The notes under the pieces: model-generated
Databases searched by the model: none
Seen by the model: the letters and a program-made list of their open reading frames with translations, nothing else
Told to the model about the DNA's origin: nothing
Translations under genes and position numbers: made by a program
From: Polytrichum commune
Taxonomy: Eukaryota; Streptophyta; Polytrichopsida; Polytrichales; Polytrichaceae
Length of the DNA: 64,000 nucleotides
Direction of reading: 5' to 3'
Assembly: GCA_950295325.1 (NCBI GenBank)
Contig: OX485807.1
Coordinates: 47,088,440 to 47,152,439 of the forward strand
In this document: positions 3,188-34,165 of the stretch, one piece after another
Layout: the number at the start of each line of letters is the position of its first letter
How positions within the stretch are numbered: position 1 is the stretch's first letter

Positions 3188-3189
3188 AT

Positions 3190-6103: not shown

Positions 6104-6536
6104 TGAGAGTTTCTCTCTCCAAGCTTAAGAAACTAAAATGTCTCCTTACAAAGCTTAAGAAACTCTAAAATTCACACACAAGAGTCAAGCTATCTCTCAC
6201 TCCACGAAGGGAGAATCCAAGAGTGCAAGTGGTGGAGAAAGAATGCAAAGGCTTTACTCATAATCTACTACACTATAGCCATGAGAAAGCAACAACAAGC
6301 TCTCTCTCTCTCTCAAAACACACTCACAAGACTTGACTTGACAACAATGGCAAGTCAAGAGGCCTTCCTCTCCATACAACCCCAATCCTATGTGGAGTTC
6401 ATCCATGGAGTGGATGAACAACTAACTAGGACTCCCAATGGAGTCCATTACTCATCCCAACACACATGGACTCCTAATGGAGTCCATTTACTCCTAAATT
6501 GACGTAACTTAGCCCCCGATGTCACCTCACGTGACA
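6104..6536 (-). repeat. Gypsy 3' LTR (left copy)
   Basis: 433 bp, nearly identical to 33763-34165 except for a 28-bp internal tandem duplication (around 6137-6165). In minus-strand sense it begins TGTCACGTGAGG and ends ...CTCTCA. The open frame 6281-6502, also found in the right copy, is LTR sequence and not a gene. The outer end is disturbed: the last bases of the right LTR (to TTGACA) are missing here and the sequence runs straight into the 107-bp repeat. Confidence 0.75.
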
Positions 6537-11423: not shown

Positions 11424-14073
11424 AGGTGATGGTTGCCAACGAATGGGTTGAGCAAAAGAAAATGAGGATGAAGTTGGAGGTGCCTCTCCAAGCTCCAAAT
11501 CCGCTACAATGTGTCGACAATGGTCGGATAACTCCTTAGGAGTTCGCCATGGTCGAGGTGGATCCTTGAAATGTCGAGCAGGAATTTGAAAAGATGATAA
11601 AAATTGTTGTTCTGCCGCATTACAAGTGTAGTCCATTGTTTCCTCCAATAAAACTGCAGCACAAGACAAATCGGCAACTGAACCGCTGCAACCAAACATT
11701 GCCTCTGCAACCATAGTCATAGCAGTGGCTGCAAATGTGACGGGAATAAATACCTTCCTGCTATCTCCAGTGGACCATCCCGGTCTAATCCATGCCTCTT
11801 CCGTCCAATTATCCAAACCAAAGCCAAGTGGGTAAAGAGCTTGCTGACCAACAAGTATATCATAGTTGGTAGCATTAGTAACAACACACTTCATTGACAA
11901 ATGGGTGTAAGTAGGCCCTGCCCCCACATGAAAAATCAAGCGTAGAGGTGCCTTGGTGTAACCTGTTGCACGTTCAGTGCCCCCTACTGAAGTCACAATA
12001 GTGAATGGATAAGGATCCAAGCTTGCTGGCGTCAATCCAAGACTGTCAGCAAGTCCTTTGCCAATCATAACCGGTTGAGCACCGGAATCCATCATAACTC
12101 TCAGTGGTGTAGCACAGATAGTGAGCATATCCGTGCGTGAAACGACAAACAAAGATTTGTCGTTCATCAGCCGTACAACTCCAGGTTGCAAATTATGCCG
12201 TTTGCGAGCAGGCCTTGCAAAAATGTCTGCAAGATATGCCGCTCCCGACGCATAATTCGAAAATGATGTATCCACTGCTGAAATTGATGCTGGAGGAATA
12301 TCAGTTTGCTTACCAAAAGCAATGATCGCCGCATCCGCAAGACTCGCTCGCAAATTGGCTAAGTCCTCCACCTCCTCAGCCACAGGTACGTCAACCACAG
12401 CTTGGGATACTTGAAGGGATGGCAAATCCGCCTTATCTTCTAACATTCTCCCAGCTAAATGAAAAACTGCAGCAGGCTTGAAATCCGAAGCCATAAATTC
12501 CGAACCCGAGAAAATTGGCATATGGAGAATTTTATATGCCAATGCCTGCGTAACATCCTTCGAGATGGAATCTCCATCTCTCAAAGGTACAGGGTTTTTA
12601 GCCCCAACAACAGTGGTGTCTACCAATCCAAATGAAAGAGGTAAACGTACTTGACCAATTTGATCAGCTGGTCCGGTATGGCGAGGATGTAGCACCTCGT
12701 TGCTACCACCACTCGTGGAAGCCACCGCATCTGCCAATGTTTGTGAGCGAGTAGAAGCCGCCGCCACCACCTCTCCAGCTGCTCCAAACATATACATGTC
12801 CGAACCCGAGGTGCCACCACCCACATGCGGCTCAGAAATTTGAGCAAAAGATGCAGAAGATTTGAGCTTTTGCTCAAGCTCTGCCACCTTAGCCTCAAGA
12901 CTCTTCTCCCTTGGAGACTTTCCAGTGACATAACTGGCAGGCCGCATCTCAGGATGAAGTTGGAAACAATGATCCACATTATGATTAGTGCCACCACAAT
13001 GGTTACATTTCAATTGTCTCTTCTTAGAATTGTCCCCTGCTTTTACTGGTTCCATCTTTTGTTTTAATTTTCCCAAAGGCTGAGTTTTCTTCTTCTTAGG
13101 ACAATTGGGATCATTCTTCGAATGACCAGCTTCTCCACAACCCCAACAATGCAAAATCTTTTGCTCCTTGACGGGTTGAGTCTCAGCTAAACTACTAGTA
13201 GCTGTGACAATTCTTCTTGGTTTCGGACTCTCTGTCATCCAAGATACCATATCCGTGGCATCATGTTGGCAAAGAGCCCGATCACATCTCTCAACCACGT
13301 CAAACGCTTGTGCAAGCGTAGCTCGGCCCTCGTAGTCGAGGATAATCCGAGGTGATGCCAACTCAAGTAGCCGCTTGTCAATCTTAGACAAAAAGATTTT
13401 AACAAGCTGACTCTCAGCAAAAACACCTCCCGACTCCACAGCAAATCGCGCGAGTCGCGTATACATGGTCCGTGGAGTATCATCCTTCTCTTGGCGGAAA
13501 TCCTGGATGCGCTGCATCTGGTCTTGCCGAAACCCACCATACTCCACTTCCAAATGTGTGACAAATTCAATAAGGGGATTAAACGGAGGTGGTGGACCAA
13601 CAATCGTCAATGCTGCCTGTGTAGCACGTGCCACCCGTGAAAGGGTTGCCGTGCTACTGCTAGCCACCATTGGCCCAAGTGCCAGTTCCGTGTCCTTAGA
13701 CTCCGCCGGCGATTCCTCCTCCTTTAAGGTGGGTGGAGCTAAGGTAGCAACCGCCCCATCCTTAAGGGCTGAAATGAGCTCAACCCGAGCCTCCCAATAC
13801 TGCTCCACCTCCCGAAGTTGTCGCTGATGACCCTCTGTCCAGCATTCATAAGTTTGGAGTGCCTCATACTCCAAATGTTGAGGCAGAAGTTCAAAGGCAT
13901 ACCAATCATTGAAATTGGAAGACCTTTGGCGTTTCTCCTTAATCCAGGTACGAAACCGGAGTTTCCAATCGGACAAGGAAATGCCCCCAGCTCGACCTGA
14001 AAACCGATCACGCACTGAATTGTGGCGATCGTCCTCCATTTCGTCGAACGTGCCGACACTCCAAATCCGAAGC
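10116..14073 (-). CDS. gag: Gag-protease-cytosine methyltransferase frame (main part)
   Basis: Continuous with the gag start at 32499 once the 18.3-kb insertion and one CTAC are removed. Numbered from Met at 14039: a Gag-like helical region (to about 280), two CCHC zinc knuckles (CWGCGEAGHSKNDPNC about 298-313, CNHCGGTNHNVDHC about 345-358), a retropepsin-like protease with MMDSGAQPVMIG (catalytic Asp about 651), and a C5-cytosine methyltransferase from about 873. One TAA at 10944-10946 cuts the methyltransferase; the frame is otherwise open to TAG 10113-10115. Having protease and methyltransferase upstream of the stop, with RT downstream, is an uncommon layout. Confidence 0.88.
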
Positions 14074-14077
14074 CTAC

Positions 14078-14105
14078 AACACTATATTCGTTATTTGGAG
14101 ACTTT
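14078..14105 (+). repeat. Left terminal inverted repeat of the 18.3-kb transposon
   Basis: Begins AACACTATATTCGTTA and continues to GGAGACTTT. Complementary to 32335-32362 with one mismatch. Confidence 0.9.
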
Positions 14106-14387
14106 TTGTTAATTTTGAGACTATTTAAGGACGTGGCTTTCACATTTATAGGAATGAAAACACTAAAAATATGCTATGTTCCCAATTTTGGAAACAAATA
14201 AGAGACTCAAATGCATGGAACTACACATTAACAATAAGAAAATGGGATATATGAAAACATTTGCATATGGAAAATCAATATCATATTTATTGAATAGGGG
14301 TTGAAGTACAAAATGCAAGTGGAATATCCAATATTAGGCGAAAGTCCTAGAAACATAATTCCACAACTACATGTATGTTAATATAGC

Positions 14388-15284
14388 CTATACGTTCGGA
14401 TCATGATTACGACTCACTACTTTTGCTTTTGCAATACTATTATTAGCATTTACGGCCGTTTCACGTTCCTTTGCTTTCATGGCCTCCATGGCTCTAAAGA
14501 TCTCGGGTCCGCGGCTGTAACCTTGTTTATTTGTTGACCCCGAATATGCGCCATTTGCCCATATTTGCCGACCCCCTTCCGAATAAGTGGAATACGAATG
14601 CGTTTGGGAAACCGAACGTCTTGCACTCTTCCGTAGGGCCAAACAACGATCAGACTCGCAAGAAGCTGTCTTCAGTGTTCGCCTATCCAATGACGAAGTC
14701 GATGATGCCCGGCCCACATTCGTGTACATTGGGGTCTGAACAATGACCATAAATATATATAATGAAGTGGGTTAGTATAAGTGGTTACAAGTTACGGATG
14801 GAAGTCCGAAAAACCCAAGAAGTTGAAATGCACTAATACACGGAAATCATCAAGGAAAAACTTGAGAATGCCAATAGTTGGGCACCTTCGCCTTTGGGGC
14901 GCTGGTTAGAGCTTTTGGGACATCGACGGGTGTAGATACAAGCCCGAGAGGGACGTTCGCAAACGCCGGGACATCAATTTGGGGTTCATCCATGCAAAGG
15001 CGTCTGGTCGACCGTGGGTTACGGACGTGCTTCTCACTGCGGAGGGGAGATGGAGATGGACTTGGAGAGTAATTGAGTTTTGCAACCTTTGCAGGAGGGC
15101 TATCCACGACTCCGTCTTCAAACCCGGAGTCTTTGGAGTAATCAACAGCAGAGGCAGCATCGACGGCCGAATATTGGAATAGTGAAGGCATTGCAACGTC
15201 GCTCATACCAAGGGAAAGGGAGCCGGTGTCTGCCTGAGATGCAGACATGCCATTGACGACACTTTTGGGTGCTTGGTGAGGCAA
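14388..15284 (-). CDS. Two probable exons, product unrecognised
   Basis: Two open stretches join in phase 0: 15284-14886 (after acceptor TTAG) and 14735-14388 (after acceptor TTCAG), with a donor AAG/GTGCCC at 14885. The first is Ser/Pro/Ala-rich with an acidic, disordered look; the second is Ser/Arg/Lys-rich and ends at 14388-14390. They lie downstream of the HAD domain on the same strand, so they may be 3' exons of an alternative transcript or a small separate gene of the transposon. No domain recognised. Confidence 0.4.
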
Positions 15285-15376
15285 CTAAGACACAAAAATA
15301 CATTACAAAGATAAGGGGAGAAATGTTAGATATTTACATGGAGAGTCCAAGTACAAACCCAAAATCATCAAAGTTT

Positions 15377-16144
15377 TCATATTAATTTATTGAGTCTAGC
15401 GTAGCCGTACAATCTCCTAAATTCCTCATCTTGTGGGCCTAGAGGCCTATTGCCAATTGGGTTGGAGAGCACAAAATCCGGGACACTTCCGGGGTGATAG
15501 GCAAGCCTCCTAATGTAGGGTCCTAGTTCACTCTCTAGAAAGTTGTCATTTCTATCGCTTTCCCAAGGATCCGGGAATATGCAATTGCCCGGGGGATTGA
15601 GAATACTCTTTGCCGGGCTGTCGTCAATGAGGAGTGTGTTATCCGGGGTGGGCCAACAACCGTGGGGAACCCCCTCCAACATAGGGACGCCCACCCAGAG
15701 GTTCTTCCTCAGGACCTTTAAGAATTGAGGCCCATGACCTCCTCCAACCTTGGGTACAATATTGCCACTACGGTCATAGAGGTCATCGCAGTGTTCTTGA
15801 CCGAGAAGCAAGCATGGCATTGCGAGTTCTCGGAAAAGGAAACCGACGATGGCCTTCGTGTTGTCCATGAGCATAGAGCTCCAAATGATGACATGGGCGA
15901 AGCCAAGGACCTCACGAAGGAAGCTCCTCAAACCGGGGCGGGCACGTACAACCTTCTTATTTATGAGAGTATCGAAATGTCCGCCGTAATCCATGTCTTG
16001 TGGACTACGGAAGGGCCCCTTGGACGCACTATTCGAGATATGTTTGGATTGACAAAGCACCCCATTGAGGTCAAATATTATGAACGGTTTCATCATGGGC
16101 GCGCTTGGTTTTCCCGCGGGGTTGCGACATATCTCCGACGGACC
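15377..16144 (-). CDS. Last exon: FCP1/NIF-type HAD phosphatase-like domain
   Basis: Starts at acceptor CACAG/GGT. Motif I reads FIIFDLNGVLC: the nucleophilic Asp is kept, but the second Asp of the usual DLDGT/DLDET is Asn. VVRARPGLRSFLREV and VIIWSSM match the NIF core, and LLIDDSPAKS is the metal-binding motif IV. NIF/FCP1 enzymes dephosphorylate the RNA polymerase II tail. The Asn change suggests reduced or altered catalysis. A host-gene capture by the transposon is the simplest explanation. Confidence 0.75.
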   Translation of the reverse strand, partial: GPSEICRNPAGKPSAPMMKPFIIFDLNGVLCQSKHISNSASKGPFRSPQDMDYGGHFDTLINKKVVRARPGLRSFLREVLGFAHVIIWSSMLMDNTKAIVGFLFRELAMPCLLLGQEHCDDLYDRSGNIVPKVGGGHGPQFLKVLRKNLWVGVPMLEGVPHGCWPTPDNTLLIDDSPAKSILNPPGNCIFPDPWESDRNDNFLESELGPYIRRLAYHPGSVPDFVLSNPIGNRPLGPQDEEFRRLYGYARLNKLI

Positions 16145-19100
16145 CTGTGATGGAACATTCTATCTAGGTAAATGGTACTACTCAAGAAAACCAATTGACA
16201 AGCATGGATAAACTCAACACAAATTATAAGGCCAAAAATAATCCGAACCATCCAGTTGAAAAATTGGTATTAATGTAATTGGTGATATACATTTGGTGAA
16301 TAATATACATTGTCGCAAAAAATATCTGTTGAAGTTAATGGAATCTATGCTAACAAAATTGTATCCACCCGCCGGGCGAAGTCGAGGATTGAACTCGATA
16401 ATATACACACGCCACGAAGGAGGCAGACAAGGAAGTTTTGGACGCGCGTCCGTAACGTGGGAGGCATGCTCAAAGGTTGATTACCTCTTCAAGGGCGAGG
16501 TCCGCGCCAGCAGTGCCTCCCTCACCTGGCCCCGTCATGGGCACAGGATCCGGACGCGCGTCCGCAAAATTGTCCAGATCTTCGACCACCAACAAGGTGT
16601 CTCCAGCCGCTTGCGACCCTTGAGTATCCACGTAAGGCTGATCCTCCTCTGTGGAGTCTTGGCTGCCCCGCATATGTACATCTTCATCGCCGATGGGGGC
16701 ATTGCCTTCATTGACATCTGTCTCGGCGGCACCCGCCATGTCACGTGCCGGTATCTCCTCCACTCCTGTAGGATGAGAGGAGGGCTCCTCTGGAGTGGCG
16801 ACAACAAGGGGAGAGGGCGGGACAATCAACGCGGGGGCTGGATAAGCATGCTCGGGTATATACACCGCATGGCTACTAGACGGAGGCCGCATGAGAGTGG
16901 GGGGCATAGACATGACGGCATCGGGAGCTGTATAGACTACAGGGGGTCTTGCCTGCAAGCTCTGCATCAGGCTCATAAATTGTTGACTTTGGGCCAAGAA
17001 CTGTTGATTTTGGGCCATGAGATCGGCGTGCCTTCGAGCAGACTCCAACCTAGCTTGCTCCATCTCAGCTTGGATGGCGGCCATCTTTTTGGCGTGCTCC
17101 TCGTTAGCTTCTCGAAGCCGTTGGTCAAGCTCTTCCTTCATTCGCCTCTCCATCTTCTCGTCCAATTCGGACACTGACATCGGCTCTTTCTTCACCTTGC
17201 CAGGTTCCGTAGGCAAGGCAGAGATGGCATTGTGAATCCTAATCTCATCCTCGTCTTCATCGGAGAGCTCCAAGACCGCGCCTTCAGGGTATTCGTTGTA
17301 TGGCGTCTTGTTCCTCTTTCGTCGACTCTCACGATATAGAGAGATATCAGGCCTCAATATCAACTCCAGCACATCCCTCCCCTCCATAGGGGGTAGATCT
17401 GAATGTTGAGATCCCCCTCCAGATGAAGCGGTGCATCCGCCTTCTGCCGCAAGGTCCACATCCTTCTCGGCCATAACTCCTGGAGCACGAGATGGACCCG
17501 CAGTTGAGGGAAATCCAACTCGAGAGGTGGGAGTCCCAAAAGGTGAGAGAACAGGGGTATGAGGGACCCTTATCGGAGTGAAGTTCACGCGTGCCTCCTG
17601 CGCATCCGTGTCGTCTGTTCCCAGCAGGAAAGCACTTGGATTAATTGGGTCGCGAACAAGGCCGTGTAAAGGCTCCTGTGTGGAGGGTTGCGCTCTTGGG
17701 GAACTGGGATCTTGGTCCTCTTCAGGGTCTGTCTCCATTCCGGGCATTGCCTCTTCTCTAGAAGAAAGAGGCACAACAAGATGGGGTGTAAGGACGTCCA
17801 TGATGTCCTGGATATCCATTTTGGAGGCCATTACCCTGTGAGTATGGGCGTCATCGTAGTCGGAATCTTGCACAAAAGAATTCACCTGCAAGCCAAGCAT
17901 CTGGACCATAACAAGAAAATTAGATAAGAACAATAGTGGTGATTGCATATAAATGAGGCTAGATGTCAACACGTTATACGGACGCGCATCCGTAAAACCA
18001 CCACTCAAAAGTTGGACAATTTTACGGACGCACGGTCGTAAAATTCACATGCACTTGATACTGGGTTTTTACGGACGCGCGTCCGTAAAATAACTATGCA
18101 AAAGATAGGTGGGTTGAAAGACAAACAAATACTCACCAGTGCTGCATACATAAACTTCGTGCCTCCGAAGACGTTGTAAACTGTCTCACTCATGACAGTT
18201 AAAGCCTTCAAGACCCCTATATAAAAGTCCATCCGGAGCTCGAATGCCGGATAGATTGCATGCATTGTCTCCTCAACAAGCTCCTTGGGATGTGGTGGCG
18301 GCAACGAATAGACTTTCCTGAACACCTCGTGTGGTTTAATGGGCAATCGCCCAGTTGGGGAAGACTTGCGTGTTAAGAAATAAAGCTGCACAGCTCCCAC
18401 TTGCTTCACCCCCCTTGCCTCTTGAATGAAAGTGATCCCTTCTGTCTTCGCTGGGATGTAGGTGCTGTGGTACATATCGTATTCGAGGTCCATCGTTGAT
18501 GTGTACAGATGGACAATGGATGTGGACCTCTCTTGTTCTACAATCCATAACCACACATGAGGCTCGAAGAGGGCAGGCGAGCGATAGCTCTTGAAGGCTT
18601 TTAAGAAGGGCTCGTAGAAGGGTGCTCCCGCAACGTCTTGCTTCCATGCTCCGGGAATTGCACGAAAATAAAAAATGGCGAAAGGGCAACCCCTGGGGTC
18701 ATCTCTCACAGAGGCTCTTGAAGCATGGGTGTCCCATGCGCCGAACTTCATGCCCTTTGCGACCGTGCAGAATCTTGCAAACCCTCCAAATTTCGCGTTC
18801 TTTTTCCTATCGAGAAAGTGAACATACAACCCTGCCTCCCTCTCGTCGATGGATCCCTTCTTTTCGTTCCTTCTGGATCGTTGGGCAAGGAAGGATGATG
18901 CCCCTCTTATCAAAGCTCGCATTGAGACGCCATTGATGTGGTATTCACCCTTCAGCTTCCTCCAATTCTCCCACACGATCTCACCATCACTATTAATGAG
19001 GTTGTGGGTGGGTAACAATTTGCTAATCTCCCTTACAGCCATGGTCTTCTTCTTTCTGTAATCGCACCATTCCTTAATGTGGTACGTGGATGGCTTCATG

Positions 19101-20878
19101 TGCTTCGGCCGCTTCAGAAAGATTTTGGGATAGGGCAGAGTTCTTCTAGGAGTTTCTAGAAGAATGTGTTCTGCTGCCCTGTACAGCTCCGAGTCCATCA
19201 ATCCTTGGAGGGGACGAAAGAACTCTCGCAGGATTGGTGGTACCTTAACTTTTGAGTCGCTCTTGTAGGTGTTCTCCGTATCTGGATTGACAAGGTCGCC
19301 GTTGTTGTGGGCATCGAAAAGTCGCAACCATATTGACCACGTCTCTTCTGTTGCAGTGATGAGCTTGAGTTCGCCTTTTAATTCATGCACTGTTTTCATG
19401 CCGCTTGTCTTCATGTCTATACTCGAGAACTTTGTCAATATGGCATTGCTGAATGTCTGCAAGAGGCGCGAATTGCAAGAAATCAGAACATTGAATTCAG
19501 TACAAATTAAATTCAAATATTTGAAGCAGTGGGAGGAGAAGGGCCACATTTACGGACGCACGTCCGTAAATCTATTTGAGTAACATACCTGCCATTTTGG
19601 GTTCTTCACGACAGCATTATCTCTTTCTTTTGGGGGACATTCGTGCTCCACCCACAAGGTCCTCCCAGCCACGATGTTGGCTGCCCATGAAGCCTCGAAC
19701 TGCCTCACTTTATTCTCCTGGTTCATGAAGGCAGATATTGCTATGAGTTGGTTCGAGTCCTTGGAATGCACGACGAATGCCTTCCAATATCGGATTGTCT
19801 CCTTTAATGGGCTTTTCCACTCGTCGTCTTCAAGGAGAGCTTTTGCAGCCATTACACTATGTTGGCCGTCGACAATGTAGAACTCTCCATTCTTGAGAAT
19901 CGGCCAATTTTTTTCGTTGACTTCAACGATAGGATCCTTTGGTGTCACACAAATGGTTTGCCTGTCAAACTTGGGGTTGTTCATGATGTTGTTCATTTGC
20001 TACCATACACCGCTTTCTTCTTTTGCTCTGGTATTCATACTTTCGGTGCCCTTGTGGCATTTGTAGACGTCTACTTCGAAAGTAAAATACCTGCCAAGGG
20101 GCCAGCATCCCTTCGTCTTCTCATCGAACTCTTGGAATATTTTTGTTGAGAGTTCGGCGTCAGGGCGTTGACCCTTTTTGAGGAGTGGAGCGACAGTCAG
20201 TGTAGAGCTGACATCCGGACCCTCTGTTAGTCCAGAGTCCATCTGCGAGTGAGAGCGTTTACTCGCCTGTCTGCTCCCTCTTGATGCACCACTCTGCGAG
20301 GGCCTTGAGGATTCCGGCACTGGTTTAGGCACACGCTTAGGTCGTTCAGGAACGACTTGTTTTTTCTTATCTTTCCCCTTTCTGGCCTCTAGCAAGGCTC
20401 CATTTACTCTTGTTACATTGTTCAAGAGTCGTCCAAGCCGCTTACCCGTCCAAGGTGCATTGCATGCATAGTCTTGGAACTCCGTCTGGAGATTGAAGCA
20501 AGCCGCATCTGTACTAGCATTCTCACACTCATTTTTGTTGAAGGGGTGGTAGGATTCGTGCAAAATGAAAGTGACCCGATCTTCTTTCTTCTCAAGGTCT
20601 ATTACTACATAATCCCCTTGTGCCACTGCACACTCTACTGTCCACGATTTAAGCTTTATCCACTTCTCAGCTTCATCTATGTCCGTCTTCATTTGATATG
20701 CAAATCTAAGCACAAATATTTCTTTCTCGTCCTTTTCTACCAATACTGTCCAATTATCCACAATTTCATCTTGTGGCTTGTAATGGTCGTTGGGACTTAT
20801 GTCTTTGATGGCTTCTGGTAGCGGAGGAATGAGAGCTTCTGCGAACATCTCAATTGCATGTCTCTTTTTAGATGCCAT
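15377..20878 (-). CDS. Transposon accessory gene: ParB-like, methylase-like, coiled coil, HAD/NIF
   Basis: Four coding exons join in phase 0 with GT-AG introns: 20878-19589, 19456-18137, 17900-16485, 16144-15380, stop TGA 15379-15377 (about 1597 codons). The ATG follows directly on acceptor TTTGCAG, so upstream exons would be untranslated. Order: an unknown N-terminal domain (to about 180), a basic Lys/Arg/Ser tract, a ParB/sulfiredoxin-like motif (about 333-345), a region ending in FGGTKFMYAAL (about 856-870), a charged coiled coil (about 1150-1230) and an FCP1/NIF HAD domain (about 1360-1597). One in-frame TAG (20000-20002, codon 293) breaks this copy. ParB-methylase fusions are common in bacteria and phages, which makes the pairing credible. 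The whole architecture is unfamiliar to me. Confidence 0.6.
16440..18090. repeat. Scattered CpG palindromes (16440, 16551, 17977, 18021, 18067)
   Basis: Copies of ACGGACGCGCGTCCGT and near-copies at 16440-16451, 16551-16564, 17977-17995, 18021-18042 and 18067-18090 (the last a perfect 24-bp palindrome). Four lie in introns. The one at 16551-16564 is inside the coding exon and is translated as part of ADARPD. Confidence 0.85.
16485..17900 (-). CDS. Exon: disordered linker with charged coiled coil
   Basis: Opens with MLGLQVNSFVQDSDYDDAH, which continues the methylase-like fold from the previous exon (position of the motif that follows FGGT in N4/N6 methylases). Then Pro/Ser/acidic low complexity, an EEELD/KMERRMKEEL-type coiled coil with Gln-rich repeats (MAQNQQFLAQSQQF), and a Pro-rich tail. 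Donor GAG/GTAATC at 16484. The long coiled coil suggests oligomerisation. Confidence 0.6.
18137..19456 (-). CDS. Exon: degenerate DNA-methylase-like region
   Basis: 440 codons, acceptor TTGCAG/ACA, donor CTG/GTGAGT. It ends in VYNVFGGTKFMYAAL, which with the next exon resembles the FxGxG (SAM-binding) block of N4-cytosine/N6-adenine methylases and the acidic residue after it. No clear DPPY-type catalytic motif is seen, so it may be inactive or very divergent. The rest (PFAIFYFRAIPGAW, LFEPHVWLWIVEQ) is compact and hydrophobic, like an enzyme core. Weak, motif-level assignment. Confidence 0.4.
19549..19570. repeat. Palindrome in intron between ParB-like and methylase-like exons
   Basis: A 22-bp copy with one central mismatch (GCACG in place of GCGCG). 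It sits 18 bases inside the 132-bp intron 19588-19457. Confidence 0.85.
19589..20878 (-). pseudogene. First coding exon: unknown N-terminal domain and ParB-like domain, one stop
   Basis: The N-terminal part (MASKKRHAIEMFAEAL onward) is unrecognised. A basic low-complexity stretch (KGKDKKKQ, RGSRQASKRS) could be a nuclear-localisation or DNA-binding tail. After TAG 20000-20002 (followed by CAA ATG) the frame continues into a ParB/sulfiredoxin-like block: PILKNGEFYIVDGQHSVMAA, comparable to the DGQHR/DGxHR signature of ParB-type nucleases. The segment ends WQ/GTATGTT. Splicing around the TAG was tried from a GTATTT donor at 20092 and gave no open frame, so a nonsense mutation is preferred. Confidence 0.5.
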
Positions 20879-20931
20879 CTGCAAATGATAAGATAGATAA
20901 GTTAGAATTCTTGGCAAAAGATATAGATCAT

Positions 20932-20957
20932 ACTTTACGAACGCGCGTTCGTAAAGT
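20932..20957. repeat. 26-bp perfect palindrome in the 5' intron
   Basis: Core TTTACGAACGCGCGTTCG with flanking symmetry. It is a variant of the family in which G:C to A:T changes on both arms preserve the symmetry (compensatory changes). Confidence 0.85.
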
Positions 20958-21057
20958 TTTCCAAATTGTCTCAATTATATTTTTGGATCCAAATGAAAAG
21001 ATACATTTCTTCCAAATACGCATAACGCGTATATTATATACTCAAATATCTCTATAA

Positions 21058-21715
21058 GTTACGGACGCGCGTCCGTAAACTTCGCAAAGATAGTATGGTG
21101 GTAAATATCAATGTATTCAAGTTACGGTTAATATTTTTTTGAGAGTCTTGTTTCACACCTACATTTTTTGAGAGTCTTGTTTCTCACCTACATATATTTT
21201 TGAGAGTCTTGTTTCTCACCTACACAAAGATCCACAAAGTTTACGGACGCGCGTCCGTAAACTTTGAGTATTATAAAGGCTATTTTAATATGCCTAATAT
21301 TACAATATTTGGCTTCGTTTGCGTAATATATTGTTTGAGAGGCTTGTCTCTCACCTACCCAAAGATCCACAAAGTTTACGGACGCGCGTCCGTAAACTTT
21401 GAGTATTATAAAGGTTATTTTAATATGCCTAATATTACAATATTTGGCTTCGTTTGCGTAATATGCGGTTTGAGAGTCTTGTTTCTCACCTACACAAAGA
21501 TCCACAAAGTTTACGGACGCGCGTCCGTAAACTTTGAGTATTATAAAGGCTATTTTAATATGCCTAATATTACAATATTTGGCTTCGTTTGCGTAATATG
21601 TTGTTTGAGAGGCTTGTCTCTCACCTACACAAAGATCCACAAAGTTTACGGACGCGCGTCCGTAAACTTTGAGGATTATAAAGGCTATTGTAATGTTTGC
21701 GTATTCCAATGTTTT
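21058..21715. repeat. 135-bp tandem array, each unit with a 32-bp perfect palindrome
   Basis: Perfect 32-bp palindromes centred on ACGGACGCGCGTCCGT lie at 21235-21266, 21370-21401, 21505-21536 and 21640-21671, exactly 135 bp apart, with a shorter copy near 21058-21084. Partial GAGAGTCTTGTTTCTCACC units precede them. All lie in the candidate 5' intron (22030-20879). Open frames on both strands here are by-products of the repeat. Confidence 0.95.
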
Positions 21716-22030
21716 CATTAATGCTCCGTGTTTTTCGGGACTTTACCTTGTCGTCCAATATGGTTTTGCCCTCCAAATAAGAATGCAATTTTACTTCACT
21801 GCAATAGCAAACACTGCACTGCAGATTGACAACATAAGGCACTTTCAGAACACTGACATGTCCATAACTAAATGATTCTTAGAATGTAGCCATAGACAAA
21901 GTACTAAACAAATTCAGAATTCCTTGAAACTGGAATCTCACATTCTGTCATGCTAACCTTAAGCCCTAAACCACAACAACCCAAAATTGCAATCATACAA
22001 AATGCAATTGCAATGTTCTAAAAAACTTAC

Positions 22031-22495
22031 CTTTCTAGAGTGTTTGCTCCTAAACCACAACTAGCTGCTCCTGCTGCAGCTAATACCAACTGCAAATGAA
22101 CAATAAAATTGAGGTCAGAAACCTCTAGTAATTCAATGTGCACATGCATGATTCAACATTGAGAACTACTCAAAAAAGTTGCTCATAAATCAGATTCATG
22201 CAACACAAGTGAAAGGAAACTATTGATTTGTATGCAAAAAATATAATGAACTACATGGTGAAGCTACAACTGAAACCCTAATGAGCAACATCTGAAACAC
22301 TAATTACCCTTGCAACAACTGAGATCAACAACTGAAAACAACCTAATGAGCAGTAGCAAGCAACAATGAGCATCCTAATGATCTAATGAGCAGCAAGCAA
22401 GCAAGTAGCAAGCAAAACTTACTAATGAGCTAATGAGCTAATAAGCAAATGAGCAGCAAACAAGGAGAACTTACTCTAGCTCTGACGCGCGTCAG
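22031..22495 (-). other. Candidate untranslated 5' exons of the accessory gene
   Basis: A 59-nt exon 22089-22031 is flanked by acceptor TTTGCAG and donor AAG/GTAAGTTTTT. Further upstream a donor AGA/GTAAGTTC at 22474 ends an exon that contains the palindrome CTGACGCGCGTCAG (22482-22495). Inferred from splice-site consensus only; no start site can be fixed. Confidence 0.35.
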
Positions 22496-22499
22496 CAAT

Positions 22500-25400
22500 T
22501 GACCAATAAGAATGAGTTTTGCATTGTGAGGAAAGAGAAGCAAGACCAGCAAGGGAAGCAAGAGAAGAGAGAGAAGAAAGTGAAGATAAGGGTAAGAAGC
22601 AAGAGAAACAAGAGAAGAAAGTGAAGAGAAGCAAAAGAAGCAAAAGAAGATGAGCAGATGAGCAAGAGAAGATGAGAAGTTGAGCAAGAGAAGATGAGCA
22701 AGAGAAGAAGAGTAGATGAGCAAGAGAAGATGAGCAAATGAGCAAGAGAAGCAATAGCAGATGAGCAAGAGAAACAAGAGAAACAAGAGAAACAAGATAA
22801 ACAAGAGTTGCAAGAGAAGGAAGCAAAAGCACGAAGAGGAGGGCAAAAGGGAGCTGGTGTACTTTGAAACCCTATAACCCTAAAGCAAGAGAAGCAAGAG
22901 CAACAATAGAAGGAACGGAAGGAAGAGATGATAGAGAAGGAAGGAAAAGCACGAAGAGCGAGGGCGAAAGGGTGCTGGAGTACTTGGAACCCTAAAACAA
23001 TGGCGTGCCTCCACGTGTCCCTACCCCAAACGTCGCGCCCAATCGCCGGCCTATACCCTTACGTGGCATCACCCTACTGGTCTATATTTGGTATTGAAAT
23101 AGGGGTTTAATTTATACTTAGTTTGGTGATTTTATTATCATATTATGTCATAATAACATCTTATGTTTATGCTAAGGCAAGTTAAAAGTCACACTAAATG
23201 TCACTCTAAATATAAAATGAGCCATCTCGTTGCCTCTTCTCTTCACTTTTGATAATGAGTGAAATATTCATACGAGCTCTAGAAAGTATTCATTATTTTA
23301 GGAAATTATATTAGGGTGTGAGGTTGAGTAAATTATTATGTCATTGTCAACAATTAAATGACATCAATAATAATAATAATATCATTTTGGAACTCCAAAC
23401 AATGAGAGAAACTAACTACAATTTCTAGTGTGGCCTCTATGGAGAGTGGGGGAGCACCTTTCATTAAAACCTAGAATCACGTGCGTTCACTGCATACTCT
23501 AAAAACCCCCTAATATATACAAGTGATTTTTTGTGAAATGAAGTAATACACATACAATTGCAACAATAAATATACAAGCAACAATATGTATACACAAAAA
23601 AACATCCATTCATATATATTAGTCATTACTCGGGGGGGCAGTGTGTTAAAAAAATAAGGATATAGGGGGGTATTACTTTCAATTCTCTTATTTTTTTCAC
23701 ATGCTATCATTATATAAATTTCTACTTTGGGTTAATAGAAAAATGGCTTGCATTACTTATAATTCCAAATTACCAATTATTCCATACCCTATACTACTTT
23801 AAAGATGTCCAGTGCCATTTTTGATACCCTATATTACTCTTAAGTCCATTTATAATTTTTTGCCCCCATGTTTTTAAAATACCCTATCATTTGTTTGCAC
23901 GTATATTGCTACTCCAACCAATGACTGCCCCCCCCCCCCCGAGAGTCATTAACATAAGTATACAAATGCAATTATTGTCTCGAAGTCTACCATGGAATGA
24001 TCAATAAGATCATATGTCCACTTGTTGTTAGCCCCTTTTGATACCAACATAAACCAATCTCCACGTTTGATGGACGGTCCATCAAGTCAAATGGATCCCT
24101 ATACTCCACCCAACGATTACCAAACTTCCTCCGCATCCTATAAACTCTCCCAACAAACCAAACCTTATGAAAACTTATCCAATATGAACACTTATGATAT
24201 ATAGTATAGTAACAATACCATACAAGTACAATTATTCTATACTTTTTAAAGGCCTTCCATATATGTACGTAACTATAAATTATAACATGTATACCATATG
24301 TATATGCAATACGGCAAGGTCCAAATCAATACCCCTCCTGTGCACTCACGTATAACTCGTACATGTTTAGTACAGTGCACCCCCCGAGCTATGGAGGGGA
24401 CTCTATATTTCGAGAATAGTAATAATATTCAATAAAAGGATGTCTTGTTGATTAACTTCAGTATAAGAATTCTTTTTCTTCTCAAAGGTGGGATTCAAAT
24501 GCAATTGGGGCAATATACCAATTGGCCACAAATTCTCATGAAACTTTGCCAAGAAATACTTGTGAATCCCTCAATTATCGCAATAAGTTGTGAAACGCAA
24601 TTAACAAAACCGAAACATCGAGATATGGGGAGAATTCATATGCTTGTAATACCTTAAACAACATTACGGATTAATTCAATCCCTCCACACATAGGTCTAA
24701 GCTTGTATTAAAACAAAATGCATGGGTATGTGTTGAATGTACATCCCTCTTGTACATTAAACAACCTTTCGGATCCATCCAATCCTTCCACACATAGGCC
24801 TCAGCTTGTATTATCGCTTATAAGTAGTAGCAAACTTGTTTATATTTGGAGTTTTCTTTCGGTGGTGAGTTGTGTTTAGGACTCGATTATAGAATACCAA
24901 TATACGATCTTCAAAACCTTTCATCAAAAGTATATGTTTAAAGCAAATGGTTTAAAGCCAAAGAAAGATTTAAAAAAATGAAAGGTAAGGTTACCCCTAA
25001 ATTTGCTTCACATTTGAAATGTTTATGGTTTTATTTTACAAAATTTAAAGGTAGTCATATAGTTTTGAATTACTTCCACTTAAGGCTACACATGTATTGG
25101 GAGTTATTCAGTTAACCATGCGTACCGTATGTCGTTGTGTTTGTTCAGGGGTGGGCGGTTATAGGGTATAGGGTATAGGGTATAGGGTATAGTGTGTAGG
25201 GTTTAGGGTTTAGGGTTTAGGATTTAGGGTACCACGTATGAACTAATGAGAGTATCCCCCTTCTGTCACCAACTTAAAATTGCTTGCCTTTATAATATTT
25301 GGATACCCTACCCTCCCCTTCTCTCCATTATGCTTTGTTGGGCTCATAATGTTACTTAGAACAACAACTGCTATTGTTTGAGTCAATATTGTAGATAATG

Positions 25401-26440
25401 TACATGGGGTACTAAAAATTGTTTTTTGTCTCACGTATAGTACATTAAGAATGCTAGTATTATTTTTTTTGAAATAAATGTTGATGTATTGAAGGGGGCC
25501 CTAAAGTTAAGAGAGGAAATTGAGAATATTGATTTTAAAGCAACCCATAGTGCCTATGACAATAGATGTGCTATTGTCATGGCATCTAGGCGCTCAAAGT
25601 TTGTGTACGTATTAGTATAATTATGTATAGGTGTGTAAAAGTGGGTAAATTAAACGGGTTGGATGGTAGGGTGGTGGCAAATGTAATTACTAGTTTAAAT
25701 GCTAGATGAGAGGAGATAACATGATATTGGAGTGAATATCATTACATCGTATGCAAAACAATAAAATAGATGCTAGTTTAATTTTGAATGACACGTATTT
25801 TTATACTCCATGTACTATTGTTGTTGTTGTGGTTGATGTTTCACACGACACTATAATTTTCTGTCTCCTAGTTCTACAATGACCTCTCAATATTAGGTAC
25901 TTCAATATTATAAACCACCCCTCAACAATGTTCAATGCTCATATATTATTAGCCTATTTTCTTTGTTGTCCACCATAAATACGTAGATGCCTTTTGCTTT
26001 GTCATTATGTGGACTCATCGTCTATGCATGTTGTCCACTATGAATACACATTCCATTGTAAGGCTGGCACACGGAATGTAGTAATTTTAGGTTTTTATTT
26101 ATAGGACGTAGATGGTGGCTAGTATCCTATGTTGGAAAACGGATCCAAGGGAAACGATCAGTACTTAAGGGGACACCCCTCCACCAAGGGACTCTTTTTG
26201 CATCTCAGATGTGGGTTGCGCTGCTTGGACCCTTGTAGTGTTCTGGATGTTTATTTCGTGCAGGTACAGATCCTATTGCAATGGACCTTTTATACCCTAA
26301 ACACTAAATTCCAAGCCATAAACCCATTAGTGGAGCCAATTTTATGTGGATTGCACTGTCTGGATCCTTATAGTGATTGATTTTTGTTTATGGCAAGTAT
26401 CGTTCCTGGTGAAATGGTCCTATTATGGCGCCGCAAATCA
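22500..26440. other. Transposon centre, non-coding, divergent promoter region
   Basis: Between the two divergent genes. 22500-22990 is an AG-rich low-complexity stretch (GAGAAGCAAGAG-type words) that opens Leu/Ser-rich frames on the minus strand but is not coding. The rest is AT-rich with a 13-C run near 23930 and no gene seen. Unlike the gene regions, it has no copy of the CGCG palindrome. Confidence 0.6.
25151..25230 (+). repeat. Short telomere-like repeat tract
   Basis: About five TATAGGG units followed by three TTTAGGG units, the latter being the plant telomere unit. It is interstitial, in the non-coding centre of the transposon, so not a chromosome end. Confidence 0.85.
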
Positions 26441-26860
26441 CGGAGGTTTACGGACGTGCGTCCGTAAACCTTAAACCTCTTGCTTGGTTGGATATCTATT
26501 TCTGTGAGAATTGCACTTGAGCTATTTCATGTACATTGAGGTTTACGGACGCGCGTCCGTAAACCTTAAACCTCTTGCTTGATTGGATATGTATTTCTGT
26601 GAGAATTATACTTGAGTTATTTCATTTACATTGAGGTTTACGGACGCGCGTCCGTAAACCTTAAACCTCTTGCTTGATTGGATATCTATTGTTGTGAGAA
26701 TTATACTTCAGCTATTTCATGTACATTAAGGTTTACGGACGCGCGTCCGTAAACCTTTAACCTCTTGCTTGATTGGATATCTATTGCAGTGAGAATTATA
26801 CTTGACCTATTTCATCTACATTGAGGTTTACGGACGCGCGTCTGTAAACTTTTGCACCTT
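26430..26860. repeat. 95-bp tandem array, each unit with a 28-bp palindrome
   Basis: Palindromes at 26444-26471, 26539-26566, 26634-26661, 26729-26756 and 26824-26851, exactly 95 bp apart. The three middle ones are perfect over 28 bp and the outer ones carry one CpG-to-TpG/CpA change. The spacer sequence is unrelated to the 135-bp array on the left; only the palindrome is shared. It lies upstream of the plus-strand gene. Confidence 0.95.
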
Positions 26861-27006
26861 TTTGTTCCATTGTTCGGTATTGCACCTGAGCTGACATCAT
26901 GACCACTTGCCATGTATAGTATACCAACGAGACTGTATTGTCATGAAAATTTTCTGACTCACATCCAGTAACCTAAACCTATTTGTGCTAGTAATGAGGT
27001 ACAGAG

Positions 27007-27490
27007 AGGTTTACGGACGCGCATCCGTAAACCTGCAAACCTTTGGTTCCATACTTTTCACTATGTGCCATGTAGAATATTACATTGAGACTGTACGGTC
27101 AATGGAGGTATAAGATCCCTAAACCCTAAGCTTACATCACCCTATGTGTCATAGTATAATATTTTGACATTCATAATACACAGTAGGAACCTGACACCTG
27201 GACATCTTGGTTTCCTAAACCTCTGTGTGTCTTGCACAACACTGACTTTTGACATTCGGATGTTTGCGGACGCACGTCCGTATACCTATGTTGTATAGTT
27301 TGCGAAAACATTTGCGCATGATATTGACCTCTTTGACCACGAAGAGATTTACGGGTGCGCGCCCATAAAACTGTCATGTTTTTGTTGTCTGGACCTTTCC
27401 GCCGACTATGAACAAATAAAGACATATGTATGCGCGTGCTTGCACTGATAATGTTGTTACATGGAGATATACGTACGCGCGTTCGTATAC
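27007..27490. repeat. Four further palindromes upstream of the plus-strand gene
   Basis: 27007-27034, 27265-27282, 27348-27370 and 27468-27490. They grow less exact towards the gene: GCATCC and GCACG variants, then GGGTGCGCGCCC, then GTACGCGCGTTC. Dyad symmetry and the central CGCG are mostly kept. Confidence 0.75.
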
Positions 27491-28994
27491 CAATGTGTCT
27501 TTGTTTCCAGGCCATGAAATCCACTATTGTTGACATTGTGTTTCATTGACAATAAGCGTTAGGACTATCCATGACATTTATTGAATGGGATATTTTGACA
27601 TACTCTTCATGTGGGTCACTTGTAGTGGCCATGGATTCCAACGTCCGAGATAGTGCATTCGAGTTCTCTTCGGAAGCGTCAAGCTATGCTAGCGAATTTG
27701 AAGGTGTTATGGAACATGAAACTACAATTGGTGTCGCCAATGCAGAGGATGATTTCATACCAACATGTGAGGGTTATTCGCGGGAACAATGGATTGATCT
27801 TGATGTTGTCATAGTCAATGGATACGGCGTCCCCGTGGCCAATGGTGTTTGTAGGAACTCAAATCCTATGGACTGTATTGATGCAAATCCCCTTGGGGAG
27901 GAAGATGTTGGGGTGTGCATTTTGAACTCCTTACATCCATTGGAAGTACCTCCTGGTTGGAGATTCTCTCTTCGTCGATGGCCGTTGCGAAGTGTTCTTC
28001 ACGATGGTGTCAGCTTGTGGAATCATGCACGTCGTTTTGAGGAAATACAAAAGACTTTGTTCGCCACAATGCGTCCTAGACAAGGTCGGCGTAAATATGA
28101 TTCCGTTCGCGTGCCCCGTGAACCCACGCAACGTCGTCGAGATCTAACATTGGGAGACACATCTATTAGGTCCGTAGCAACAAAGGATTGTTGTGCAAAA
28201 ATGTGTTGCCAACTATTTCCCCGTGACAAAATCAAATCTTTGAGACAAGAGATGTGGCTTGCGGACTTTCGGATGCGATCTGCAAAGAAACTTGAAGTCC
28301 ATCGCAACATGCACTTTGATGCCGAAGGTCGTAAGGTTGTGACCTTGGAAAATATAGAGGTATGCTGCACGGCATGGTACATTATACATGCAGTTTCAAA
28401 GGCAGATTTTTATAGGTTCCGGAACTACTCGCTGCAAGGACGGCGTTCTCGGTTCCATGGCAACTCTGGTACAAAGAAGCCCAGGGAGGCAACACTCCAA
28501 GCAGCTGCAACACTATCAACCATCATTATGCCATTAGCAGATGCGATGCCACACAAAACACGGACTCTGCCGTCGGGGGAAAAGGTTGTCCAGATGGTTT
28601 TGCCTACAGGGACAAAATGGAAGAACATACTTATGGATGTTAATGAGGTTGGCGAAAAGGCTGGATGTGGGCCGATTTCGTTGTCAAAATTGAGTGTGAT
28701 CAAGAATCAACAATTTGCAGAGTACATTACGAAGAGGCCTGGGGATAAGTTTGCCAGGTGTTCTGCTTGTGAAAAATACAAGGGCCTTCGAGATGCACAT
28801 CCCATAGGGACTGAGTCGCACAATAGACATCAACGGAAATACATTGAGCATGTCAACAACCAAGAGGCACACTGTCAAGACTACTACAAGAATCGCGCAT
28901 TATCGATAATGAGGCCGAATGAGGTTTTGACAATCATTCATGACAAAATGGACCATGCGAAGACTGCGTGCCCTTGTTGTCGCAACCCTTGCTA

Positions 28995-29950
28995 GGTCCC
29001 TTAATAATCTTGCCAATTTTCAATTCTAGCAAAGGTTACGAGTCGCTAACCCTTCGCATTCCGCCATGCTAATGGATAGCTCCTCTTACCCCGGACCAAT
29101 AGTTCATAGGAGGGAACCAACCCTCCTACTTTGCTTTCGGGACTCACCCCTTAATCGGTAACCCATTTCCCCAATGTGGACTTCCATTCATGGAAGTCCA
29201 ATCCTATGTTGATCATCGCATTGCCGGAGCAACACTACAACAACCCGAACCATACTAGGCAACTATGGCCTCACAATAGGCCAAAGCCCATGGAGGCCTT
29301 GCCGTTCGGCCTCGGGTGGGTGAGGCCACACCACCTCACCCATATAAGCCTCTAGGACTTCACGCGGGGCCCCTACCCCACCGTCAACCAACCTCTTGTC
29401 TCTCTACCAAGAGTTGGGGCCAAGTGGACATTTTCCTTTAGCTGCTGGGCCTAGAACCCCCCAGCAGCTTCAGACCATCATAACTTCCTTGTATGATGTC
29501 TGATCATAACCACCAACCACTCCATCCTCATCTACGCTTCACGTAGATGCCGATGGACTCCTCACTTGCTCCATTCGAGCAAGTCTTGAGGAAGTTATGC
29601 CTGTTTGAACCTTGGCAGTCCCGGGAATCCCTCCCAGGCACTGCTGTACCAGGGCGCTGTCCCGGGACAGCGCCCCACTCAAATGGCCATAACTCCTAGC
29701 TCACACCTCCGATTGAGGTGTTCTTGAGCATTCTAGAATCACCACGCCATGAGCTACGCATAGCTCATGGCCTTGCCCTTGTGCCTCCTAGTCTTCGTGG
29801 GTGGGAGGCGTTCCCAACGCCCGGGGCCCTCACCCACACTAGGATCACTTGGGCCCTCTCACCAACGGCGCCACAAGTCCCGGGTGTCACTCCGGGGTCC
29901 CCCTTGTGCCCATGGTGTTTCGGGCACTCCTCATGGAGAGGTGCGCGACA
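28995..29950. mobile_element. 956-bp insertion in the transposase-like gene
   Basis: Flanked by CTTGCTA (28988-28994) and CTTGTTA (29951-29957), a 7-bp near-duplication with one difference; strictly only CTTG is identical. The coding frame resumes directly after it with the expected family sequence (ARKIKATDGYFKLPISVTG). Contents are GC-rich with several short hairpins (for example ACTTCCAT/ATGGAAGT), a TATA-like CATATAAGC and no open frame of interest. It could be a solo LTR or a non-autonomous element; the class is not resolved. Confidence 0.65.
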
Positions 29951-30065
29951 CTTGTTATGCACGGAAAATAAAGGCTACAGATGGATATTTCAAGCTCCCA
30001 ATATCTGTCACAGGTTCGTTGGTTTTCACATTTTTTTTGCGAACCCACATACTCATCGTTAAGAG

Positions 30066-30085
30066 TTACGGATGTACATCCGTAA
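30066..30085. repeat. 20-bp perfect palindrome inside the transposase intron
   Basis: TTACGGATGTACATCCGTAA, the family pattern with GTAC replacing the central CGCG. It lies within intron 30014-30182, so it is spliced out like most left-hand copies. Confidence 0.85.
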
Positions 30086-31705
30086 GTGTTTGTTCATTTT
30101 CTTGGCCTTCTTGCGGAAAAATTGAATTTCCTTATTATAAATGATATTGGAATGTACTTCTCATTTGTATGTCTTAATTCAGGTATGATCGCACATGGCC
30201 ATGTGGACGTCAAGTATGCACATTATGGCTTGGATTTCTATCCAGGCGACGCCAATCATACCGTAGGGTCTTTTGCAAAACTTCTACGAGATCTTGAGAG
30301 TCCGCCAACATCATCCTCTCGCGCTCTTTTTGTTGGATGTGGAACAACACCGATTTATGAGGCTGTGCTAGAGGGGAAAGAAGTATGTCTATCGTCACTG
30401 CAAGAACCGCCTGAACAAACCGTTCTTGCTAAACCTTTGCCTCCAACTCTACATGTGCAACTGGACAATTGTGCCAAAGACAACAAATGTCGATACGTGT
30501 TTTGTTTTTGGTCATTGCTCGTAGCCAAGGGCATTTTCAAAGAAGTGTTTGTGTCTTTTTTGATGGTTGGCCACACGCATGATGACATTGACGCTTCATT
30601 TGGACGTTGGAGTATGAAGTTGCACGAGGAGGATTTTCCGACGATTCCTCTTCTCATGAAATCATACATGGATTTGGATAATGTGCCAGTCATCCCGCAT
30701 TTGATTGAAGAAGTGCCCGATTTCAAAGCGTTTATCGAACCATTCATTCTTAAGGGAGGTGACCGTTTAGTGGGCCATACCAAGGCTCAACAATTCCGAT
30801 TCTATATGCGTGATGATGGTTTGCCGGCCATGCAATTCAAAGTTTTGTGCACTTCCCCGGATTGGGGTCCAGAGGAAGGGATACTCGTATGGCGCCAAAA
30901 CGAAGAAGGCAAATGTATGCTACCTGATGGGGAGCCGAAGCCTTGCAAACCCAACCCCATGAGGAATGGACCAGAAATCATCAAAGGTATATCCGGATTC
31001 ATCCAATATTGGAAAGAATTGTGCGAGGAAGACATCACAAGGCGTGTTCGGGATACCCACGAACCATTGATTACGTACTGGGATCGCATTCGCTCAGCAT
31101 TGCTAGCACCCGATGTCGAAACACATTCATGTTTGACACAAGGTTTTTGGCCACAAAGCCGAGTGACAATCGTGGAATCTGAGGCCATGTTCTTCGACAA
31201 TGGGGACATCCGTGAAGAGTTCGCAGCGGACGACCATTATGTTGGCCCAGCTCGTAATCGTCCGGCTCCATCATTTCGTGTGGCTGTTGATTGCTACGAA
31301 GGGTATATGATCCTCGTACGTCCTGGAGATGAGGAGCACCCTAAACCGATTTGGTTGGTAAAAGCATTGTCATCACCAAATTTTGTTCCAACTAGCCCAA
31401 ATTTTCATCAAATTGAGGTGGAATATTGCCGTCCCAGCACCAAAGATCAAAATGTGCTCCGCACATATTTAGGGTGGGACACCAAAAAAGGTTTCAAATG
31501 GACAATGGACTCAGCATACGAACCAATATGGATAAACACAGATACCATACTTTGTGCTTGGAAACCACGCAAAGGTTCCAAATCAGAGACAATGACCATC
31601 CCCCAAAAACATATAGATTTTGCCAAAGACAACTTGGCACGTATTGCTGCTGCAGAAAACGATGTCGAGAATGGAAATGAAGCTGAAGATGAAGATGGAG
31701 AATGA

Positions 31706-32334
31706 TATTGACGTAGGGTTGGACCACAATTATTTGAAATGTGTCTTGGTTTTTCATGAAATATATGACATTGGGGTCGAATACTATATTAGACACATTT
31801 TATAGCAATTTTATAGATTACAATTATATATCATGATTGTATTGATTTACGGATGTGGAATCCAACTTCACATGCGCTATCAAATGTTTTTTATATGTTT
31901 GTGTTTACGGATGTGGAGTCCAAACTATATAATTATATTGCAGATGCTAATTTGCAATTTCTTATACACACTGTCAAATTATTTTAATATTGTTGCGTTT
32001 GGGATGTGCCGTTCAATTCACCCACAATTGGCTAAGATGTTATGTTTGGGATACGCATCCAAGAGTCCCTAGATATAAAATCAGATGGCTATTTATAGAT
32101 TCATTAATTTTGTTCAATACAAAATCAAAAATACAAAATAATTGTGAATTTGTGACATTGGAATATTGTGTTGGCGTAGTTTTGATTATCCCCCAAATAA
32201 TTACTATATTTAGAAACATATATATTCATCACATATGGATCTTTCGAACATTATGTTGCCATTGTTCCCCATGTTCCCTACGTTCACAATATTCGCATCC
32301 GAAACTACGGGTCCAATTTATTTTGAGACTTTCC
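31706..32334. other. 3' flank of the transposase-like gene
   Basis: AT-rich non-coding DNA with half-palindromes such as TTTACGGATGTGGAATCC near 31847 and 31901. No gene seen. Confidence 0.5.
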
Positions 32335-32362
32335 AAAGTCTCCAATTAACGAATATAGTGTT
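32335..32362 (-). repeat. Right terminal inverted repeat of the 18.3-kb transposon
   Basis: Complement of the left end; 27 of 28 bases match. Followed by the target duplication CTAC (32363-32366). Confidence 0.9.
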
Positions 32363-33762: not shown

Positions 33763-34165
33763 TGAGAGTTTCTCTCTCCAAGCTTAAGAAACTCTAAAAT
33801 TCACACACAAGAGTCAAGCTATCTCTCACTCCACGAAGGGAGAATCCAAGAGTGCAAGTGGTGGAGAAAGAATGCAAAGGCTTTACTCATAATCTACTAC
33901 ACCATAGCCATGAGAAAGCAACAACAAGCTCTCTCTCTCTCTCAAAACACACTCACAAGACTTGACTTGACAACAATGGCAAGTCAAGAGGCCTTCCTCT
34001 CCATACAACCCCAATCCTATGTGGAGTTCATCCATGGAGTGGATGAACAACTAACTAGGACTCCCAATGGAGTCCATTACTCATCCCAACACACATGGAC
34101 TCCTAATGGAGTCCATTTACTCCTAAATTGACGTAACTTAGCCCCCGATGTCACCTCACGTGACA
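33763..34165 (-). repeat. Gypsy 5' LTR (right copy)
   Basis: Matches 6104-6536 apart from the 28-bp duplication in that copy. The minus-strand start TGTCACGTGAGG is at 34165. The inner end may extend to 33754, giving TGTCA...TGACA termini. It contains two dyads of the form GGACTCC...GGAGTCC. Confidence 0.8.

Follow-up and report, generated by a model that had tools for sequence, protein, structure and literature searches.

To our knowledge, self-recognition by transposons and their escape from silencing have been worked out at the molecular level in few systems. In the VANDAL transposons of Arabidopsis, VANC21 binds the motif YAGTATTAY, which is dense in the noncoding parts of VANDAL21, where it is tandemly repeated ahead of VANA and within the VANC and VANB introns, and VANC6 has other motifs (PMC5735166). 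Here we analyze a 64,000-nucleotide stretch of the Polytrichum commune genome (contig OX485807.1, positions 47,088,440 to 47,152,439; hereafter the window), which contains an 18.3-kb DNA transposon with a DUF7869 transposase (family A) and a CpG-rich palindrome repeated through its noncoding DNA. The sites examined belong to the element family, shun coding DNA, and vary in sequence by family; they cluster in introns and upstream of both of the divergent genes of the element, the transposase gene and an accessory gene (gene 1). We put at about even the chance that a ParB-like accessory protein docks at these palindromes in a family-specific manner and would thereby keep the element expressed, in the way that VANC acts on VANDAL.

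The original prediction had likened the palindromes to VANC-bound arrays, and the likeness holds up in layout and in the turnover of motif and accessory protein. As in VANDAL elements, a short element-specific motif is dense in noncoding DNA, appears to have spread in tandem, lies ahead of the transposase gene as well as within accessory-gene introns, and varies by family, as does the accessory protein (PMC5735166). The VANC21 motif is YAGTATTAY in the same orientation, whereas the motif here is a CpG-rich palindrome of 16 to 24 bp. Further, the transposase here is of the DUF7869 type, without a match to a Mutator transposase domain, and the accessory protein appears ParB-like. Mutator-type elements have target site duplications (TSDs) of about 9 bp, unlike the 4-bp TSD found here. 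By this analogy, the layout and turnover are close to those of VANC and VANDAL, and the proteins are not.

VirB is a relative of ParB, parS is a palindrome, and ParB and methylase domains occur together in polyvalent proteins. VirB is reported to offset silencing by H-NS (PMC10653881), and polyvalent proteins are described as multidomain proteins of mobile elements, found in phages and plasmids (PMC5512222). As in ParB-parS and VirB, a ParB-like domain here stands beside palindromic sites; in contrast, the arginine of the GxxR motif is absent, no DNA-binding part was identified, and the host is eukaryotic. Like the polyvalent proteins, the accessory protein is multidomain and belongs to a mobile element, but it is too distant for a family match and sits in a eukaryotic transposon. 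CACTA (En/Spm) elements have a 3-bp TSD, ends starting with CACTA, and subterminal repeats bound by an accessory protein. The family A terminus also contains CACTA, but its sites are internal rather than subterminal, and membership in CACTA is ruled out by the AACACTA ends and the 4-bp TSD.

With up to three mismatches allowed, the 16-mer ACGGACGCGCGTCCGT has 20 matches between positions 16438 and 27486, compared with a mean of 0.01 in 100 dinucleotide shuffles of the window. All 20 lie within the transposon and none in the remaining 45.7 kb of the window. Four of the perfect palindromes are 32 bp long and three are 28 to 30 bp, in agreement with the roughly 20 copies of up to 32 bp originally predicted. 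Two arrays are confirmed, with periods of 135 bp (21192-21694, 3.7 copies, 95% match) and 95 bp (26443-26849, 4.3 copies, 92% match); the spacing is exact, as predicted, but the units are not fully identical. Units of the two arrays have little in common beyond the palindrome, with no cross-match over 60 bp. The copy near 20932 is, as claimed, changed on both arms and still perfect (ACGAACGCGCGTTCGT).

Only 1 of the 20 sites is coding, where coding sequence makes up 7721 of 17312 bases (binomial, 1.3e-4). The predicted placement in introns and flanks thus holds for 19 sites and fails for the one at 16550, which is in an open coding frame. Introns do contain sites, but not always singly as had been proposed, since the gene-1 intron at 17901-18137 holds three. 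Similarly, the center and termini are not entirely free of palindromes: the gap between the arrays spans 4.8 kb (21663-26450) and contains a single degenerate copy at 22479 (6 mismatches of 20), and further degenerate copies lie nearer the element ends at 14792 (5 mismatches) and 30066 (4 mismatches).

We searched the genome (408 Mb in 64 contigs, the window lying on contig C5) for the exact palindrome and found 1097 copies, compared with none of its reversed control. Fifty of these sites were listed individually, in seven clusters on contig C1, and 15 of the 50 were fetched. All 15, in three element copies, belong to this element family (76-98% identity), and four of the seven clusters have one of 85 scored transposase copies within 24 kb. 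Some 9 to 11 kb ahead of another transposase copy, itself 93% identical to that of the window, noncoding DNA 77-82% identical to the element (L074) has one exact A-type site and two variants; L074 is a candidate part of the same copy. Among 30 fetched copies, the best-scoring ones and including that of the window, 29 have the 20-bp palindrome of the transposase intron (TTACGGATGTACATCCGTAA) unaltered, and the remaining copy differs from it by a single base. As far as tested, the palindrome therefore goes with the element and is present in its other copies, as the original prediction expected. Viral contigs contained no copy of an extended 18-mer and no relative of the transposase.

At one locus on contig C7, seen in L028 and L071, a family A copy is inserted into a second DUF7869 element, which we call family B. 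The family B palindrome is ACGAACG-NN-CGTTCGT, with the central two bases free, and occurs at 26 exact sites with no A-type site among them: 22 in L071, along with two with a changed outer base, and 4 in the L028 flank, along with one with a changed outer base. The family A element, in turn, has 11 A-type sites and 1 B-type site, compared with 0 and 26 at the B locus (Fisher, 1e-8, over sites that are not independent). The layout is similar to that of family A. L071 has an array at 455-1587, sites upstream of the accessory gene at 5076-5772, an empty stretch between arrays, two sites in the 116-nt accessory intron 1 (7126 and 7183), and two after exon 2 (8582 and 8680). None of its 24 sites is coding (binomial, 3.7e-5); the L028 site near 3966 does fall within a family B open frame, its position being similar to that of the family A coding exception. 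No palindrome sites are present in the transposase-side 10 kb (L072) or the far 4 kb (L073) of family B.

Between the two families, the transposase is 76% identical in part of exon 1 and 84% in exon 2 (first 335 of 507 residues). The accessory protein is 39% and 53% identical in two parts of exon 1, 53% in exon 2, and 33% in exon 3 (over 315 columns), and the phosphatase encoded at the accessory locus is 60% identical. Taken with the difference in motif, these identities suggest, from one comparison, that motif change follows the accessory gene rather than the transposase. Element-specific noncoding sites, a motif that differs by family, and an accessory protein that has diverged more than the transposase together argue for the predicted binding site for an element-encoded protein, most likely the accessory protein. 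This protein would bind the palindromes as a dimer and, once bound, would keep the element genes expressed, either by countering silencing or as an activator. Duplication, both tandem and inverted, is the probable source of new sites.

Scanning the transposase alignment against prokaryote genome contigs gave 12 loci, which probably reflect contamination of metagenome bins by plant or protist DNA; L002 to L009 come from a bin of Trichormus, the symbiont of the fern Azolla. L011 was dropped because its length and repeats are the same as those of L010, and L018 was added, leaving 12 contigs for analysis. Strict palindromes (arms of at least 11, spacer of at most 4; shuffle means, 0-0.05) are present in 9 of these 12 contigs and differ in sequence from that of family A: TTTAGCTCGA-S-TCGAGCTAAA in L001, GTCGATGC-n-GCATCGAC in most fern-like loci, CAGAATCCGATGCAGTGCATCGGATTCTG in L003, and CCTCGGATGCTGCATCCGAGG in L010. 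L008 has a single strict palindrome, equalled by at most 1 of its 20 shuffles; L005 and L010 have two each, one of each outside the array upstream of the transposase; and L012 has one palindrome with a mismatch. Five fern-like contigs contain the transposase and a divergent open reading frame (ORF) bearing GGSHSAEARRQL, with an array between the transposase and this ParB-like ORF in four of them (L002, L004, L005, and L006). Ceratopteris richardii has a relative of the ORF (P0198). The motifs of L002, L005, and L006 share a GTCGAT half-site.

The sole constant across these lineages is the presence of palindromes upstream of the transposase match (L001 to L006 and L008 to L010), which would also fit binding by the transposase itself, for autoregulation of the divergent promoters or assembly of a transposition complex. 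We regard this as possible but doubtful, because families A and B have different motifs but transposases that remain 76-84% identical, and because the sites (up to three mismatches) are far from the terminal inverted repeats (TIRs), with 2.36 kb separating them from the left end of the element and 4.9 kb from its right end. These distances rule out subterminal transposase sites.

The ParB-like domain of the original prediction receives weak but consistent support. For an AlphaFold model of the fern-like accessory protein (pLDDT, 64.8), Foldseek ranks 1 to 3 against the PDB are all ParB structures (probability, 0.97-0.85; E values of 0.068, 0.092, and 0.57, none below 0.001), and the accessory gene has a weak ParB-like match in PHROG (E value, 0.096). 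The model of the moss-like accessory protein is poor (pLDDT, 47.3), and direct sequence comparison of the moss-like and fern-like proteins is not significant; we link them by their DGQHS/GGSHS motifs, which are in register, by where the genes lie, and by the fold of the fern-like protein. ParB carries a GxxR motif for CTP binding, and its helix-turn-helix (HTH) binds palindromic parS. G-Q/S/N-H-S replaces GxxR in the proteins of the window, P0132, P0203, and the fern-like loci, and no DNA-binding domain was found, the helices after the ParB-like part matching no HTH. The accessory protein may be ParB-like, but these results do not establish the palindromes as parS-like in the strict sense.

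Fern-like loci also have a methyltransferase-like ADIPYGF segment on the accessory strand (L002:1813-2277, L006:2-475, and L007:1642-2103, all on the minus strand), which precedes the ParB-like ORF in locus coordinates. N4 and N6 DNA methyltransferases have a DPPY-like motif. Matches to methyltransferases are weak (UPF0020, E value of 0.13; CcrM, E value of 1.8), and the homology is suggestive only. Accessory exon 2 of the window, which has no match in Pfam, may be a degenerate counterpart of this segment and possibly contains a degenerate Rossmann methyltransferase-like part.

We compared 59 distinct 36-mers drawn from the window and loci L026 to L070, including the second family flanking L028. 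Matched changes on the two arms exceed permutation at positions 4, 5, 10, 12, 13, 14, and 18 among these copies, which share ancestry; the innermost three arm positions show no such excess, and single changes to TG/CA dominate at positions 1 and 3. The paired changes would suit RNA hairpins in introns and leaders, serving as splicing or small-RNA signals, as would the many intronic copies and the free central bases of family B, which recall a loop. This explanation is nonetheless unlikely: many sites lie upstream of genes in both directions, shared ancestry makes the permutation overstate covariation, and birth by inverted duplication would also yield paired flank changes.

Several observations weigh against binding by the accessory protein. 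Family B is one locus of the same genome with tandem copies, whose sites are not independent, and its transposase intron contains no palindrome. Three of the 12 other contigs (L007, L012, and L018) have no strict palindrome, L007 among them despite holding both genes. In the fern-like L002, L005, and L006, the accessory protein is 71-78% identical and the transposase 73-80%, indicating no clearly faster accessory divergence. The ParB fold matches are weak (E values of 0.068-0.57), and the search for a DNA-binding domain was negative. Finally, we looked for slower change at the sites than around them and did not convincingly find it. Against one close copy, 14 of 551 site bases changed compared with 162 of 8493 in noncoding surroundings, and against two older copies change was slightly slower at the sites (22 of 208 compared with 523 of 3525), overlapping loci being counted more than once in these figures. 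The original statement that conservation bears on the palindrome itself is therefore only partly right.

That sites evolve as fast as their neighbors relative to the close copy would be expected if the palindromes had no function and were carried passively, spread by hairpin-mediated or tandem duplication; the arrays are indeed tandem, and L002 and L004 contain palindromes of palindromes. We consider this quite improbable given that units of the two arrays have little but the palindrome in common, that coding DNA is avoided, that the motifs of families A and B differ as sets, and that palindromes recur in other lineages. Captured sites for a host transcription factor or chromatin protein, for which CpG palindromes are common targets, are very unlikely, as a shared factor leaves unexplained why two families in one genome have different palindromes.

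A broader form of accessory protein binding is speculative and, in our view, rather doubtful. A ParB-derived, partition-like module of a eukaryotic transposon might have turned to self-recognition and anti-silencing, with a fast-evolving ParB-like protein loading at CpG palindromes seeded in the element and perhaps spreading along it, the pair having co-changed repeatedly in mosses, ferns, and possibly algae.

The features of the family A element are listed in the table, with intron borders set by inspection. DUF7869 (PF25273) is above its curated cutoff in the transposase (137.7 bits versus 26; E value, 4.5e-40) and is the only Pfam match of exon 2; exon 1 has none. Among named relatives of the transposase, those of two mosses, Ceratodon and Physcomitrium, score best (47-48%). 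A full-text literature search for DUF7869 returned no match, a result that we confine to that search. Accessory exon 1 has an in-frame stop in the window and a different one in copy L069; P0132, an 863-amino-acid homologue, is a single ORF reading through intron 1 without a break. The NIF/FCP1-like phosphatase could act on RNA polymerase II.

Features of the family A element in window coordinates (LTR, long terminal repeat)
Feature	Position	Strand	Remarks
DUF7869 DNA transposon, family A	14078..32362		TIR AACACTATATTCGTTA; 4-bp TSD CTAC; read from sequence
NIF/FCP1-like phosphatase exon, accessory locus	15377..16159	-	Open frame; PF03031, E value of 4.4e-13
Palindrome, gene-1 intron 3	16438..16453		2 mismatches; acceptor not fixed; exon 3 ends at 16485
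Accessory gene (gene 1) exon 3	16485..17900	-	Low complexity; open frame
Palindrome in open exon 3 frame	16550..16565		Sole coding site of the 20
Three palindromes, gene-1 intron 2	17978..18086		Intron 17901-18137
Accessory gene exon 2	18138..19456	-	Conserved; 55 homologues
Palindrome, gene-1 intron 1	19552..19567		132-nt intron, 19457-19588
Accessory gene exon 1	19589..20878	-	ParB-like DGQHS motif near 19.88 kb; one in-frame stop
Variant palindrome ACGAACGCGCGTTCGT	20937..20952		Upstream of gene 1; same as family B sequence
One site and array of four 32-bp palindromes	21061..21663		Period 135; upstream of gene 1
Five-site array and three single sites	26450..27486		Period 95; upstream of transposase ORF
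Degenerate palindrome	27349		Among sites upstream of transposase ORF
Transposase exon 1, first part	27631..28977	+	Cut by solo LTR
Solo LTR	28978..29950		973 bp; TSD CTTGT; inside transposase exon of window copy
Variant palindrome TTACGGATGTACATCCGTAA	30066..30085		Transposase intron, 30014-30182
Transposase exon 2	30183..31705	+	With DUF7869

The transposon is nested in other elements. The outermost layer is a CACTA-like element (5297-34687; TSD CAT), within which lies an LTR retrotransposon (LTRs at 6104-6536 and 33763-34165), and family A sits within the gag ORF of the latter. When its flanks are joined and a single TSD is retained, the gag frame is open; a second family A copy, on contig C7 (TSD TAGT), likewise has an open frame at its empty site. 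The family A end CGAATATAGTGTT is at the expected place in 27 of 30 fetched copies. The LTR retrotransposon appears to have a DNA methyltransferase of its own, its minus-strand ORF at 10944-14081 containing a C5 cytosine methylase domain (PF00145; E value, 1.8e-11) and a protease-like match. The sequences on either side of the outer element recur elsewhere in the window at 96-97% identity (477-5263 to 55905-60981 and 34688-36946 to 61733-63997), a duplicated region that shows a near-empty site of that element. At 47576-49956, a 120-bp unit is repeated 19.8 times (97% match). Minisatellites at 42334-43107 and 44099-44452, outside the DUF7869 element, are built on a different near-palindrome, GGTGAGGCATGTGCCTCACC, and may represent another element with a palindrome array of its own.

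The two families in one genome amount to a natural swap, in which the transposase is little changed and the accessory protein and the palindromes have both changed. If the accessory protein does bind the palindromes as proposed, the pairing of an element-specific motif with a fast-evolving reader would have two or more origins involving unrelated proteins, and plant transposons would have put a bacterial partition fold to new use.

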